DNA from: a virus | Strand: one strand, 5' to 3' | DNA length: 33,604 nucleotides | IMG/VR virus record: IMGVR_UViG_3300020051_000053 | Coordinates: 1-33,604 of that record | Shown: positions 5,126-10,943 of the stretch, one piece after another | Position numbering within the stretch: the first letter of the stretch is position 1 | Layout of the letters: each line of letters opens with the position of its first letter | Made by a program: the position numbers and the translations under genes | Notes under the pieces: generated by a model | The model's database searches: none | Seen by the model: only the letters and a program-made list of their open reading frames with translations | Told to the model about the DNA's origin: nothing

Positions 5126-5320
5126 ATGAAAACAGCAATAAAAAACAAAAGAAATAAGTTGACAGAACGTACAACTACCCAAGCTATTTGGGTGGACTCA
5201 GAGATACACCAGTTGCTAAAAGAGCATCAGGTGATGTCTAGGAGCACAAGAAGTCTAGGTGAGTTAGCAGCCCATTACATTAAGCTAGGTATTTGTGATG
5301 CTAGGAGTCAGGAGAAATGA
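5126..5320 (+). CDS. Small ribbon-helix-helix-like regulator
   Basis: An ATG at 5111 opens the frame, but ATG 5126 is preferred because GGAGAG (5114-5119) sits 6 bases before it, whereas 5111 has no ribosome-binding site. The 64-aa product has a basic N-terminus, then TTTQAIWVDSEIHQLLKEH (a strand followed by a helix, as in Arc/MetJ proteins) and SLGELAAHYIKLGI (second helix). This layout suggests a dimeric ribbon-helix-helix DNA binder, possibly a transcriptional regulator. It is followed by an ATGA overlap with the next gene. A weak promoter-like TTGCCA-16-TAGAAT lies in the 55-bp gap upstream. Confidence 0.5.
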   Translation: MKTAIKNKRNKLTERTTTQAIWVDSEIHQLLKEHQVMSRSTRSLGELAAHYIKLGICDARSQEK

Positions 5321-6722: not shown

Positions 6723-8656
6723 TGACAAACGAGGACTGGGCATCAATAGCTAAACCTATTGGCTTAGAATTACTTGGCGAACCAAAGTCTGTAACATCGA
6801 CTGAGGTTCGCTGGGGTACTCATGGCTCTTGGGTTTTGAATATTGAGAAAGGACAATTTTATTCCTTTGAATTGGATCAGGGTGGTGGTACGATGTGGCT
6901 ACTTAAACACTTTGATCAAAGTATTGACGAAACACTTAGACGATTTGGTTTTGGCGATGAGGGAGCAATGTCTAACGACATTCATTTTATCTCCCCAAAA
7001 AAAGAAGCACCTTCATCGCCATCTTTAACCAGAGATAAATTTGTAGAACTCTGGTTGCAGGCAAGCATCAAGTTAAAATATTCTGATGACTTTGCAGTGC
7101 TGAGATTCCCAGAGGGTCATCCTAGAAGCAAAATTAAATATGCACCTTTTAGCAAGCGTGGTGATCTTTGGTATATGAAACGCCCAGAGGGGCTTATGCC
7201 TTTGTATCTATCAGATAAAAGTTCAGACAAGCCTGTGCTCCTTGTAGAAGGCGAGAAGGCAGCCATAGCAGCCGAGCAGATATACGCTGGTCAGGTTGCT
7301 TGTCATCATGGTGGCTGTAAGGGCTGGGATAAAACAGACTGGTCAAGCATCTATGGTAGGCAGGTTTACATATACCCAGATAATGACGAAGCTGGGCTCA
7401 TGTTTGCACAAGAGATATCCACTTATTTAAGAACTAATGGCTGTGAGGTAACTATTGCAAAACCTCATCCAGATTTACCAGAAAAAGGTGATTTACATGA
7501 AGCTAAAGAATTGGGTATTTACAGCGATTCTGATGCTCTTGAGGACTATATTAAAAACACACCAGTAGACAGACCTAAGGGTGCTTTATACTTCGAGAGA
7601 GCTGATCTGGTGATGTCTCAGGTGGATAATCCTGATTGGCTTATTAAAACAGTTGCAGAAAGGTCTAGTTTGCTTGGTGTATTTGGTGCACCTAAGTCTG
7701 GAAAGTCTTTTGTGGCTATTGCTATGGCAGCAGCTATAGCTAATGGTTCTGACTTTTACGGACATAAAGCAAAACGTGCTCCAGTGGTTTATCTATGTGG
7801 CGAGGGTAAGCGTGGGGTCAAACGTAGACTTGCAGCGTGGAATCAATCAAAGGAAAGCCTAGATGGTGCTCCTTTATTCTTATCCAATAGAGGAACTCGA
7901 ATACTTGATCCAGACGAATATGCCAAGCTCATAGCAGAGCTGGATATGATTGCAGCTCAGGAAGGTGAGTTAAGTTGCATCATATTTGATACGCTCAACA
8001 GGAACTTTGGAGCAGGCTCAGAGAACAGCACTGAGGACATGACATTGTTTATTAGTAGGATGGATGAGCTTATCCACAAATACGAAGCTGCTGTGATTAT
8101 AGTCCATCATACAGGACACTCATCTAATGGCAGGCAGCGTGGGAGTTCTGTGCTAGGTGCATCAATGGATTATGAATTTAAGATTGAGCGTAATGATGAT
8201 ACTAAAACTGGCGATACCCACAAAACCATGTTTGTAACGATGGAGCAGACTCTTAATAAAGATGGTATGGGCATGGAGAAGATTAACTTTGAATTTAAAG
8301 AAGTTGAGCTTCTTGGGTTTGAAGATTTGACTTCTGGTTACTTAGAAGTAACAGATCATGTGATTGAGAAGAAGGCAAAGCTAAAAACCACTCATGCTGA
8401 GATTAATAGAGGTCTAAAAAGACTTGCTCTGGATAAGGCGATTGCCGAAGGTGGCAATGAAGAGGATTACACCTTTTCCATTGGTGATCTGGTGGGTGTA
8501 TGCAAGACCCAAGCTGATAATGATATGAAGCGATCTAACATTGCTCAATATATTGGTGAGATGGTGGAGAATGATCAAGTTATTAAAATTGATGAGCAGT
8601 ATCAGTCGATTGAATACAAAAAAATGGTGAAATTCAGTGATAAATTCAGTGCTTAA
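6722..8656 (+). CDS. Bifunctional primase-helicase (TOPRIM plus RecA-like ATPase)
   Basis: This 644-aa protein has three parts. The N-terminal module (W-G-T-H-G-SWVLNIEKGQFYSFELDQGGGTMWLL) is of the kind found before TOPRIM in phage primases and lacks the Cys zinc ligands. The TOPRIM domain contains VEGEKAA (E176) and YPDNDEAG (D220-D222). The RecA/RepA-type ATPase has Walker A GAPKSGKS (322-329), Walker B SCIIFDTLNR and the sensor-like IIVHHTGH. The C-terminal region (about 550-640) is probably a winged helix. It would unwind and prime the phage chromosome. No DNA polymerase gene is visible, so the host replicase is presumably recruited. The iteron block at 8661 follows directly. Confidence 0.9.
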   Translation: MTNEDWASIAKPIGLELLGEPKSVTSTEVRWGTHGSWVLNIEKGQFYSFELDQGGGTMWLLKHFDQSIDETLRRFGFGDEGAMSNDIHFISPKKEAPSSPSLTRDKFVELWLQASIKLKYSDDFAVLRFPEGHPRSKIKYAPFSKRGDLWYMKRPEGLMPLYLSDKSSDKPVLLVEGEKAAIAAEQIYAGQVACHHGGCKGWDKTDWSSIYGRQVYIYPDNDEAGLMFAQEISTYLRTNGCEVTIAKPHPDLPEKGDLHEAKELGIYSDSDALEDYIKNTPVDRPKGALYFERADLVMSQVDNPDWLIKTVAERSSLLGVFGAPKSGKSFVAIAMAAAIANGSDFYGHKAKRAPVVYLCGEGKRGVKRRLAAWNQSKESLDGAPLFLSNRGTRILDPDEYAKLIAELDMIAAQEGELSCIIFDTLNRNFGAGSENSTEDMTLFISRMDELIHKYEAAVIIVHHTGHSSNGRQRGSSVLGASMDYEFKIERNDDTKTGDTHKTMFVTMEQTLNKDGMGMEKINFEFKEVELLGFEDLTSGYLEVTDHVIEKKAKLKTTHAEINRGLKRLALDKAIAEGGNEEDYTFSIGDLVGVCKTQADNDMKRSNIAQYIGEMVENDQVIKIDEQYQSIEYKKMVKFSDKFSA

Positions 8657-8660
8657 AAAA

Positions 8661-8790
8661 GTGTATGTAAAATATGTATGTGTGTATGTAAGTGTATGTA
8701 AAATCGTTGAAAAAATGTATGTATGTGTATGTATATCCTAAAGGATACATACACGTACATTCAAACGTACAGACAAAATTTACATACAAA
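8661..8790. other. Iteron and palindrome block, candidate replication origin
   Basis: This non-coding block contains five direct TGTATGTA copies (starting 8662, 8683, 8693, 8716, 8726) and two inverted TACATACA copies (8746, 8781). A large palindrome spans 8725-8754: GTGTATGTATATCC, loop TAAA, GGATACATACAC, with a 2-base bulge. Direct-copy spacings are 21, 10, 23 and 10 bases, close to whole helical turns, as expected for a protein-bound array. It lies between the primase-helicase and the next gene. It could be the origin or an operator for the 8798 gene. Confidence 0.6.
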
Positions 8791-8797
8791 TTAAATT

Positions 8798-9304
8798 ATG
8801 AAAACTAAAGAAAAAAAACAATATTCTGCTGAAACTATTAAAAGGTTAGAAGCTTATCAAGATTACAAAAAAGAGTTTCATACCAAATGGGGCGATCAAC
8901 ACAGATTAGATAGATTGGTTGGTGTGGACTTTAGGGTTAAGTTTATGAAAGCAGAGCAATTATTTAAAGCATCAGCACTTGAAAGGAATGATGTAAAAAC
9001 AGTCAAAATGATTGATATGATGTATCGAGCATATGCAGCTTTAGAAGAAGAGATGCAAACTCTGGGCTATAAACCACTTGAACCCCACATACGCTGTTTT
9101 GATTGGGATGGAGTTATTTGGTATGTTACAGACTTAGATTATGAAGTTCCAAGAGCAATGCAACGATATAAGCATGAGGGTAAAGCTAATTTTATTAGCA
9201 TACAAGAGCTGCTTAGATGTGTTCCAAAAGAACTGATGGATATGCGACTTGAATTAGCAATAATGTTTGAGGGCAGTAAGTTTGTGAGGATAGAGAAGAA
9301 ATGA
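8798..9304 (+). CDS. Hypothetical protein downstream of the candidate origin
   Basis: This 168-aa protein has a strongly basic, helical N-terminus (MKTKEKKQYSAETIKRLEAY) and a central helical part (KAEQLFKASALERNDVKTVKMIDMMYRAYAALEEEM). A compact C-terminal region reads HIRCFDWDGVIWYVTDLDYEV. It has no clear ribosome-binding site; the start follows the iteron block by 7 bases. No family recognised. Being directly downstream of the repeats, it could be regulated by, or bind, that block; this is inference from position. Confidence 0.7.
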   Translation: MKTKEKKQYSAETIKRLEAYQDYKKEFHTKWGDQHRLDRLVGVDFRVKFMKAEQLFKASALERNDVKTVKMIDMMYRAYAALEEEMQTLGYKPLEPHIRCFDWDGVIWYVTDLDYEVPRAMQRYKHEGKANFISIQELLRCVPKELMDMRLELAIMFEGSKFVRIEKK

Positions 9305-9502: not shown

Positions 9503-9650
9503 AGACAGACAAACAGGCAGGGTGAGCACCACTCATTATTATGCTAAGTGCACTAGCACCAAAGAGTTGAAGGATATGATTGATAACCCATCAACTAAAC
9601 CTAAGATCAAGCAGAAATGTAGAAATGAATTAATAAGGAGAATGAAATGA
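9468..9650 (+). CDS. Small basic phage protein (60 aa)
   Basis: It encodes MPIKISKSQKVRDRQTGRVS, then TTHYYAKCTSTKELKDMIDN and a basic C-terminus ending RRMK. The 'K..VRDR.TG..TT.YY.KCTST.EL' plan is a small conserved phage protein type of unknown function. The last 15 bases (9636-9650) form the left copy of a direct repeat that recurs at the end of the next gene. It overlaps that gene by 4 bases (ATGA). Confidence 0.65.
   Translation: MPIKISKSQKVRDRQTGRVSTTHYYAKCTSTKELKDMIDNPSTKPKIKQKCRNELIRRMK
9636..9650 (+). repeat. 15-bp direct repeat, left copy (ribosome-binding site/stop/start junction)
   Basis: AGGAGAATGAAATGA at 9636-9650 is repeated exactly at 10550-10564. Each copy contains a Shine-Dalgarno sequence, the codons for a terminal R-M-K, the TGA stop and the overlapping next ATG. 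The repeats bound the AT-rich gene 9647-10564. Confidence 0.9.
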
Positions 9651-10564
9651 ATAAAGTTATGTTGCAAAAGGTTATTAACTATCCTGATTTAAAAAACAAC
9701 CCAAAGAAAAAAGATAAAGATTTTCGTATGGAAATTTTTAACGATATTACACCAGAAAACGCCAAAGACATTGATGAAAAACTAACGCTCATGGTTAAGG
9801 AACTTGGAGATGATATACAAACATCTTCTAAGTTTTTTATAACCTCTAATTTAAATAATTTTGTTATTGAAAATTGTAAACTAATTTTGCAGTCAGAAAA
9901 AATACAACAAGAATTTAAACTACCATTTGATAAGCCTTTGTTATTGCAAAACGAATCTTACAACAACTTTACTGTATTAATAAGACCAATATTTAATGAG
10001 CTGGAAGATAGTCATTTTTGTGCTGAATTTTTTCAAAAAGATGAAAACAATAAAATATGCTTAAATGGTGCTGCATTAGCTTTTAATAAAAATATTTTTA
10101 ATAACAATAAACCAGCTTATAACAATTTTAAAAGTTTATATCTTTCTAATAATTTTGTTCCAAGCGAACAATGGGAGCACAATAGAGCACAACTCGTTAC
10201 TGTTACTATATTAAGTTATTTATGCTCAACAAGTTTACAGGATGATTTAAATATTTTTGAAACAAAAAATATAAAAGGTCTTAAGGGAATTAAAACCAAT
10301 ACAAGAGAATATTCTTATAGAAATTTTTTATCTAAGCCAATGTATGAGCACAAGATTTTAAATTTAAACATAGGAATACCTAATGAGAACATATCTAAAA
10401 ACAATAAATCAAATGGGTATAAAAAAAGATTGCATGAGGTCAGAGGGCATTTGAGAAAACTTAAAACTGGAAAAATATGTTGGGTTACAAACCACAAAAG
10501 AGGAGATAGCAGTCTAGGAATAATAACCAAAGATTACAATTTAGATTATAGGAGAATGAAATGA
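9647..10564 (+). CDS. Lysine/asparagine-rich hypothetical protein in a repeat-bounded cassette
   Basis: This 305-aa protein has no recognised enzymatic motif. The body is rich in Lys, Asn and Phe and noticeably more AT-rich than its neighbours. The C-terminal 45 residues contain a distinct, conserved-looking module: H-E-VRGHLRKLKTGKICWVTNHKRG followed by DSSLGIITKDY. I associate this 'H.VRGH.R.LK.GK..WV..H.RGD' pattern with C-terminal domains of uncharacterised phage proteins, but cannot name it. The gene is bounded by identical 15-bp sequences, so its removal would leave the flanking genes perfectly joined. This and its composition suggest acquisition as a module. Confidence 0.75.
   Translation: MNKVMLQKVINYPDLKNNPKKKDKDFRMEIFNDITPENAKDIDEKLTLMVKELGDDIQTSSKFFITSNLNNFVIENCKLILQSEKIQQEFKLPFDKPLLLQNESYNNFTVLIRPIFNELEDSHFCAEFFQKDENNKICLNGAALAFNKNIFNNNKPAYNNFKSLYLSNNFVPSEQWEHNRAQLVTVTILSYLCSTSLQDDLNIFETKNIKGLKGIKTNTREYSYRNFLSKPMYEHKILNLNIGIPNENISKNNKSNGYKKRLHEVRGHLRKLKTGKICWVTNHKRGDSSLGIITKDYNLDYRRMK
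10550..10564 (+). repeat. 15-bp direct repeat, right copy
   Basis: It is identical to 9636-9650. It places an AGGAG ribosome-binding site and ATGA stop/start in front of the DUF3310 gene. Confidence 0.9.
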
Positions 10565-10788
10565 GCAAAGATATGGTAAACCATCCACCACATTACAATC
10601 ACAATGAGGGTGGCTTAGAATGTATTGACTATATCAAGCAACAGCTTGGTGCTTCATTCCCTTCCTATCTGGAAGGTAGCATCATAAAATATATACACAG
10701 GCACAAATATAAGGATGCCAACATACAGGACTTAGAGAAAGCCCAGTGGTATCTGAACAAGCTCATAGAGCACTACAAAAACTTATGA
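10561..10788 (+). CDS. DUF3310 protein (phage T7 gp1.7-related nucleotide kinase family)
   Basis: This 75-aa protein carries the DUF3310 signature: VNHPPHYNHNEGGLECIDYI, then LEGSIIKYIHRHKYKD and DLEKAQWYLNKLIEHY. The family includes the C-terminal part of T7 gp1.7, a nucleotide kinase, but most short members have no proven activity. The core here is complete (H-P-P-H-Y ... E-C-I-D ... K-Y-I-x-R-H-K ... D-L-x-K-A-x-W-Y-L). A role in nucleotide metabolism is likely but not certain. It overlaps the next gene through ATGA at 10785. Confidence 0.88.
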   Translation: MSKDMVNHPPHYNHNEGGLECIDYIKQQLGASFPSYLEGSIIKYIHRHKYKDANIQDLEKAQWYLNKLIEHYKNL

Positions 10789-10943
10789 ATATAGATAAAG
10801 ATAAATTGAAAAAGAAAATAGAACAGGGTAAGTCATCACATGACATAGCCATGCAGTATGACGTACACCCATCAACAATCAGACGTAAAGCTAAAGAGTT
10901 AGGACTTAAGTTTGAAGCTAAGTCTCATTGGAGAAAGAAATGA
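10785..10943 (+). CDS. Small helix-turn-helix DNA-binding protein
   Basis: A longer frame opens at 10746, but ATG 10785 is chosen because it forms an ATGA overlap with the DUF3310 stop. The 52-aa product reads KLKKKIEQGKSSHDIAMQYD, then VHPSTIRRKAKELGLKFEA, a classic Hin/resolvase-like HTH (G-x-S-x-x-x-I-A-x-x-x-x-V-x-x-S-T-I-R-R). It could be a transcription regulator or a DNA-binding accessory for packaging. It is the only clear HTH regulator apart from TerS, and it ends in an ATGA overlap with the next gene. Confidence 0.7.
   Translation: MNIDKDKLKKKIEQGKSSHDIAMQYDVHPSTIRRKAKELGLKFEAKSHWRKK

Follow-up and report, generated by a model that had tools for sequence, protein, structure and literature searches.

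What is the function of an array of repeated octamers which lies directly behind a viral primase-helicase gene, and which protein reads it? This question is raised by a stretch of viral DNA of 33,604 nucleotides (IMG/VR record IMGVR_UViG_3300020051_000053, positions 1 to 33,604), called the window in what follows. A preliminary description of it had proposed an iteron origin or an operator, had found no initiator to name and had offered three neighbouring proteins as possible binders. We conclude, with a probability of approximately 0.8, that the block at 8657-8797 is the iteron replication origin of a marine phage, the words of which would be bound by the C-terminal winged helix (approximately residues 540-644) of the primase-helicase itself. 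The earlier proposal of an iteron origin is well supported, by the kept layout, the constant place beside the primase-helicase, the multi-site symmetric design and the presence in relatives; its part on the initiator and the binder is not.

The repeat block

The block is the 141-nt gap between the stop of the primase-helicase gene (8656) and the start of the next gene (8798). The seven exact copies of TGTATGTA reported in the preliminary description are all present where it had placed them, and a near-copy, TGTATGTG, stands beside them at 8675-8682 (Table 1). The whole window contains 9 copies of TGTATGTA for 1.76 expected, a number which was reached in none of 100 shuffles. Within 8657-8797 there are 7 copies for 0.25 expected from local dinucleotide shuffles (reached in 0 of 2000), and when any octamer is allowed as the word these 7 copies compare with a mean of 2.0 (again 0 of 2000 local shuffles). 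The block is also the densest cluster of the window, with one 7-mer occurring 8 times within 150 nt as against 4 for the runner-up; by the same measure (7-mer clustering within 150 nt), no further cluster resembling an origin was detected in the window.

Table 1. Coordinates of the features of the block and of its surroundings (positions in the window).
Feature	Position	Strand	Remarks
Primase-helicase gene, 644 aa	6722..8656	+	N-terminal region, Toprim, RecA-fold SF4 ATPase
Predicted C-terminal winged-helix domain, approximately aa 540-644; proposed origin-binding domain	8339..8653	+	AlphaFold topology, winged-helix fold matches, word co-variation
Left direct array	8662..8700	+	Words at 8662, (8675, near-copy), 8683, 8693; relatives with different words also have left arrays of four
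A-rich spacer AAATCGTTGAAAAAA, between both word clusters	8701..8715	.	Most relatives A-rich at the same place
Second direct pair	8716..8733	+	Words at 8716 and 8726; the 8726 word is inside the palindrome
Imperfect palindrome (dyad) GTGTATGTATATCCTAAAGGATACATACAC	8725..8754	.	30 bp
Inverted words at 8746 and 8781	8746..8788	-	Degenerate copies ACGTACATTCA and ACGTACAG in between
Downstream gene	8798..9304	+	No known family; flanks the block; not the word reader

The term "helically phased", which had been applied to the direct words, holds loosely in the window, where the spacings are 21, 10, 23 and 10 (13, 8, 10, 23 and 10 if the near-copy is included). The palindrome is located as described, but its symmetry is imperfect: it consists of outer arms of 10 bp (8725-8734 and 8745-8754) and of inner arms TATCCT and AGGATA, with an asymmetry of 2 nt. 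The GC skew, where an inflection had been looked for, is positive across nearly all of the window, has its maximum at approximately 8-9.5 kb and does not change sign at the block; since the main genes share one orientation, this is uninformative on the origin either way. An IHF-like site in the spacer was not enriched over shuffles.

Relatives keep the layout and change the word

Relatives were collected by a search with the downstream protein, which gave 34 IMG/VR loci, and by searches with the helicase, which gave many more. More than 80 of the 93 distinct downstream sequences collected belong to this family, and the layout is common to more than 80 distinct viral metagenome relatives and to several cultured marine phages. 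Usually, four direct words come first and are followed by an A-rich spacer; one or two words then enter the dyad, and inverted words come last. Neighbouring direct words are most often 10-11 bp apart, other groups of spacings lying near 22-23 and 32-33; a spacing of approximately one helical turn is conserved in relatives. We also checked for absence of the block from close relatives which keep the replication genes: it was found, with differing words, in all near relatives whose sequence covers this place.

The word itself is variable, with approximately 20 types among the relatives. These include TGTATGTA, GCATATA, CTGTACCTA, GGGGTAGT, GTCGG, TTTTGGATTGG and AAGGTGGAAT, as well as GAGTGTGTG, GAGGGAAGT, GAAGGAAGT, CAGGGAATT, GAGTTAGTT, CTCTGCCA and GTGGATATA. 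In L010 and L011, the GTCGG-type words start while the helicase is still being encoded, in the last 40 nt or so of its gene. In L052:5821-5937 and L053:5821-5937, the array of a single origin mixes two words, GGATGGGAC and GGCTAGGAC, and both loci differ from each other at one site; judging from these arrays, a change of specificity may perhaps have been caught midway.

Several cultured phages have an array at the same place. CGGTACA occurs 8 times in Idiomarinaceae phage 1N2-2, TGAACCA/TGGTTCA 8 times in Alteromonas phage PB15, GCTGGAA 7 times in Roseobacter phage CRP-406 and GGGGACA 5 times in Salicola phage CGphi29, each number being reached in 0 of 100 shuffles. Vibrio phages 1.210.O and 1.076.O have a common CCCCCTATATATAGGGGG dyad and scattered GTCCG words, with weaker word counts. 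The more distant phages Jersey, Thonko, CloverMinnie and Mae-JY30 have similar helicases and no such array, and AAM37 gave an ambiguous picture; the array does not therefore accompany every helicase of this type. Neither iterons, nor repeats, nor an origin are mentioned in the paper on CRP-406.

Other searches concerned the surroundings of the family. A pattern scan of viral contigs for satellites having a TGTATGTA origin and no helicase yielded, among the matches listed, mainly simple repeats or unrelated arrays and the known family. Another trio, TTTGTATGTATCC(T)TTGTATGTATTGTTGTATGTATTAATTTAAAT, is conserved in other viral contigs without an adjoining helicase of this family (L226, L229, L231, L238, L241, L244, L248, L252, L265 and L280). 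A search of genome contigs for the host gave 7 matches, all distant, with no near prophage.

In seven loci (L084, L106, L159, L186, L198, L049 and L052), a gene is inserted between the helicase and the block, which persists approximately 0.4-1.1 kb beyond the helicase stop. The inserted gene codes for an MT-A70 or Dam-type methyltransferase in the first five (assigned by Pfam in L084, L106, L159 and L198, and through similarity to L198 in L186), and the displaced word is there of the type found beside similar C-terminal domains. The protein inserted in L049 and L052 has no family assignment. Adenine methyltransferases of two unrelated families, MT-A70 and Dam, have been repeatedly inserted exactly between the helicase and the origin (L106:5384-5836, L159:5366-5812, L084:5207-5713 and L198:5363-5896); the methyltransferase genes of L159 and L106 extend at their 3' end into the direct words.

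The words might instead be bound, by the C-terminal domain or by another factor, as a transcription operator for the downstream genes, the block not being an origin. It is indeed intergenic within a co-directional gene set, autoregulation by initiators is common, and inverted words suit the binding of a dimer. However, sigma-70 promoter-like sites are fewer at the block than expected by chance and no terminator was found there, while eight sites round a dyad exceed a typical operator. Moreover, where a gene is inserted, the block stays on the downstream side, away from the helicase, and is hence not the operator of the helicase gene. We consider that an operator in place of an origin is unlikely; a double role, as origin and operator, would be compatible with these observations.

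The word follows the C-terminal domain of the helicase

We measured the similarity of words by the shared 6-mers repeated at least 3 times and compared it, over 68 loci, with the identity of four protein regions. For the C-terminal domain of the helicase, the partial Mantel correlation with the word, the other regions being controlled, is 0.61 (68 loci) and 0.57 after dereplication to 54 loci (p 0.001). For the dereplicated loci, it is -0.02 (p 0.64) for the downstream protein and -0.04 (p 0.81) for the helicase core; a small partial correlation of 0.08-0.11 is left for the N-terminal part of the helicase (p 0.006 for the value 0.11). The initiator which the preliminary description could not name is thus likely to be the primase-helicase itself, as the word tracks its C-terminal domain.

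Two natural swaps were found. In L010 and L012, residues 1-540 of the helicase are mostly 92-100% identical and the C-terminal domain approximately 30% identical; at the level of DNA, the identity falls from 93% to approximately 45% across the C-terminal domain and the left words, and rises above 90% further downstream. When the window is compared to L009, L010 and L012, the exchanged stretch is longer and its right-hand end is the same. The second swap opposes L093 and L094 to L100 and L114. As far as sequence comparison can establish it, the C-terminal domain and the words form a specificity cassette, exchanged as a unit by recombination between near-identical phages.

It could be objected that words and C-terminal domain co-vary purely as neighbouring pieces of DNA which are inherited together, without any functional match: in most loci, only 5-20 bp or so lie between them. 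But the downstream gene is approximately as close to the words. The 89 pairs of loci whose C-terminal domains are at least 70% identical comprise 84 with the same word and none with unlike words, whereas 99 of the 239 pairs whose downstream proteins are alike over their first 70 aa have unlike words. Since both flanks are near the block, this contrast is not due to mere linkage. In addition, the words match the family of the C-terminal domain even across an inserted gene of approximately 0.45 kb or more. Physical closeness could by itself yield part of the co-variation; that it should account for the whole of it seems to us very improbable.

Iteron arrays are also known in centromeres and in some packaging sites, and the array could accordingly be a site for packaging or partition and not an origin. 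This too is very improbable: the block belongs to the replication module and is several kb away from what are likely the terminase genes (at approximately 11.7-14 kb, from a reading of the ORFs), no ParA or ParB was found among the genes scanned, and the word follows the helicase.

The dyad and the other candidate readers

When the block is folded as a single strand and compared to shuffles, the z-score is -5.8 for RNA and -6.3 for DNA. The first value, together with the fact that the block is probably transcribed, would suit an RNA hairpin (an attenuator, or a processing or stability element); the second is at least as strong. In 46 distinct dyad sequences, a set which includes a few stems drawn from neighbouring sequence by the automatic search, the paired positions comprise 551 Watson-Crick pairs, 21 G-T and 20 A-C. 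As both mismatches are equally frequent, no preference for an RNA strand is visible, and the symmetry appears to matter in DNA and not in RNA. A search of the block in Rfam gave no match. An RNA element was rejected on these two grounds (mismatch symmetry and Rfam); it would furthermore have no terminator to its credit and would leave the direct words and their link with the helicase unexplained, so that we give it hardly any credence.

The centre of the dyad is often CTATAG or a close form. In L010 and L011 the dyad resembles that of L012 and the left words differ, a hint at a possibly separate reading of dyad and words. The dyad could be a cruciform, a priming site or a symmetric protein site.

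The preliminary description had suggested that the word is bound by the product of the gene at 8798, by the RHH-like protein at 5126 or by the small HTH protein at 10785, as initiator or repressor. All are small and nearby, and the 10785 product has an HTH match. They are at least 90% identical across different words, however: in L046, where the word is another one, the proteins of the 5126, 8798 and 10785 types are 96, 91 and 97% identical to those of the window, and no match is detectable between the helicase C-terminal domains. Hence these three proteins are not the partners matched to the word, and we rejected them as its readers; that one of them is nevertheless the initiator or a repressor can practically be dismissed. 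Likewise, the 8798 product is 91-93% identical in L009 and L010, which have other words, and the 10785-type protein is very different in L017 and L018 (91% versus 39%), the words of which are identical. The 8798 product has nothing above the curated Pfam cut-off and no match in PHROG or NCBIfam.

Two observations concern the genes further downstream. For the small HTH protein (window 10746-10943), phages which are otherwise near-identical have at least two strongly divergent alleles (approximately 40% versus more than 90% identity). A gene of 305 aa without assignment (window 9647-10564) is missing at this place from nearly all relatives checked, only L101 having a match (36%); this gene is therefore probably a recent acquisition.

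A predicted winged helix at the end of the helicase

The block lies directly 3' of the gene for a Toprim and SF4 primase-helicase resembling Twinkle, T7 gp4 and RSF1010 RepA. In Pfam, the protein matches AAA_25 (6e-32) and, weakly, Toprim-like families; in PHROG, it is a DNA primase/helicase. In Foldseek, its AlphaFold model (mean pLDDT 82) has matches to Twinkle, T7 gp4 and RSF1010 RepA, the last with a TM of 0.75 over the target.

The last 100 residues or so are predicted to be a winged helix. Modelled alone, with moderate confidence (pLDDT approximately 85 in the core, mean 75), the domain has helices at 556-576, 587-590 and 604-616 followed by wing strands at 620-623 and 626-629, that is, the order helix-helix-helix-wing of a winged helix. 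Its comparison with winged-helix proteins gives Z 8-10 (VIA-align), and the assignment is based on these values and on the AlphaFold topology. The Foldseek matches of the domain are weak, none having E < 0.001, and a search of PDB sequences with its profile gave no significant match. In the alignment of the domains, the third helix carries a [SP]NIxxY stretch which is common to the TGTATGTA-type proteins and differs in proteins with other words; a link between this stretch and the word is suggestive only.

Comparison with known replication systems

SaPI Rep and SCCmec Cch2 are self-loading initiator helicases, with helicase domains named DUF927 and D5_N/Primase_C-term in the SaPI Rep type, and their C-terminal domain recognises short iterons (PMC7581432). 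The phage system shares with them short iterons directly downstream of the helicase gene and, if the predicted recognition by the C-terminal domain is correct, the fusion of helicase and initiator. It differs by its SF4 RecA-fold motor with a Toprim primase, SaPI Rep and Cch2 being outside SF4, and by an array built round a dyad. By analogy the phage helicase would work like these proteins without belonging to their family, since its motor is of the SF4/RecA type (Pfam AAA_25; Twinkle, T7 gp4 and RSF1010 RepA in Foldseek).

The helicase of P4 alpha belongs to SF3. P4 alpha binds the repeats of its origin by a winged helix (PMC4234260) and, as is predicted here, unites in one protein a Toprim-type primase, a helicase and a winged-helix origin-binding domain, with repeated sites in ori. 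Unlike it, the phage protein has an SF4 motor and a weak Toprim; the layout and the position of ori also differ.

The oriV of RSF1010 has iterons and hairpin ssi sites, served by the separate proteins RepC, RepA and RepB' (PMC4234260). Common features are the SF4 helicase RepA, to which the fold of the motor has one of its closest matches, the iterons, and the inverted repeats, which are ssi sites in RSF1010. But RSF1010 uses three proteins, of which RepC reads the iterons, whereas a single protein appears to combine the roles here: the word is tracked by the C-terminal domain of the helicase, and by none of the tested neighbours in the way that a separate RepC-like reader would track it. In pRN1, a stem-loop origin lies behind the replication gene (PMC4234260), and again the origin is directly downstream of that gene, the shape of the stem-loop is kept and its sequence is not, and there is a C-terminal winged helix. 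This archaeal plasmid has no iterons and combines an archaeo-eukaryotic primase with an SF3 helicase, unlike the phage, which has iterons and an SF4 motor.

Finally, PLE satellites swap their RepA-ori modules jointly and thereby escape the phage nuclease Odn (PMC8263062). In both cases, the origin and its cognate binding domain are exchanged together between near-identical elements; the PLE initiator is however a RepA_N protein of a satellite, with Odn identified as the driver, and the phage protein is a primase-helicase. Our search of the open-access literature found no paper describing the present type of origin, an absence which is weak evidence.

Discussion

Initiation at the block could proceed as follows. 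Several subunits of the helicase would use their C-terminal domains to dock on both the direct words and the inverted words flanking the dyad; it is the co-variation which points to recognition of the words by this domain. If SaPI Rep, Cch2 and P4 alpha are taken as models, the symmetric array might then orient two helicase rings, and the A-rich spacer or the dyad would open. The SF4 ATPase would unwind the DNA and the Toprim part would prime, possibly at the extruded dyad.

A broader reading is possible, which we put forward as tentative and rather doubtful: these phages may form an undescribed and widespread class of marine replicons, in which an SF4 primase-helicase of the Twinkle/RepA type reads the adjacent iteron-dyad origin by its own origin-binding winged helix, the cassette being under diversifying selection. 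Such selection could be driven by nucleases directed against the origin, by satellites or by co-infecting relatives, on the pattern of PLE and Odn. If this were true, approximately twenty natural pairs of domain and word would make a recognition code of winged helices readable.

A large group of marine phages is thus provided with a concrete candidate origin and a candidate initiator, neither of which is apparently annotated, and the group includes cultured members which can be tested. SF4 primase-helicases are generally regarded as dependent on a separate initiator or loader; the present results suggest that such an enzyme can itself include a domain for origin recognition. The natural exchange of the cassette is a ready-made experiment on the switching of replication specificity, and it raises the question of what may drive it.
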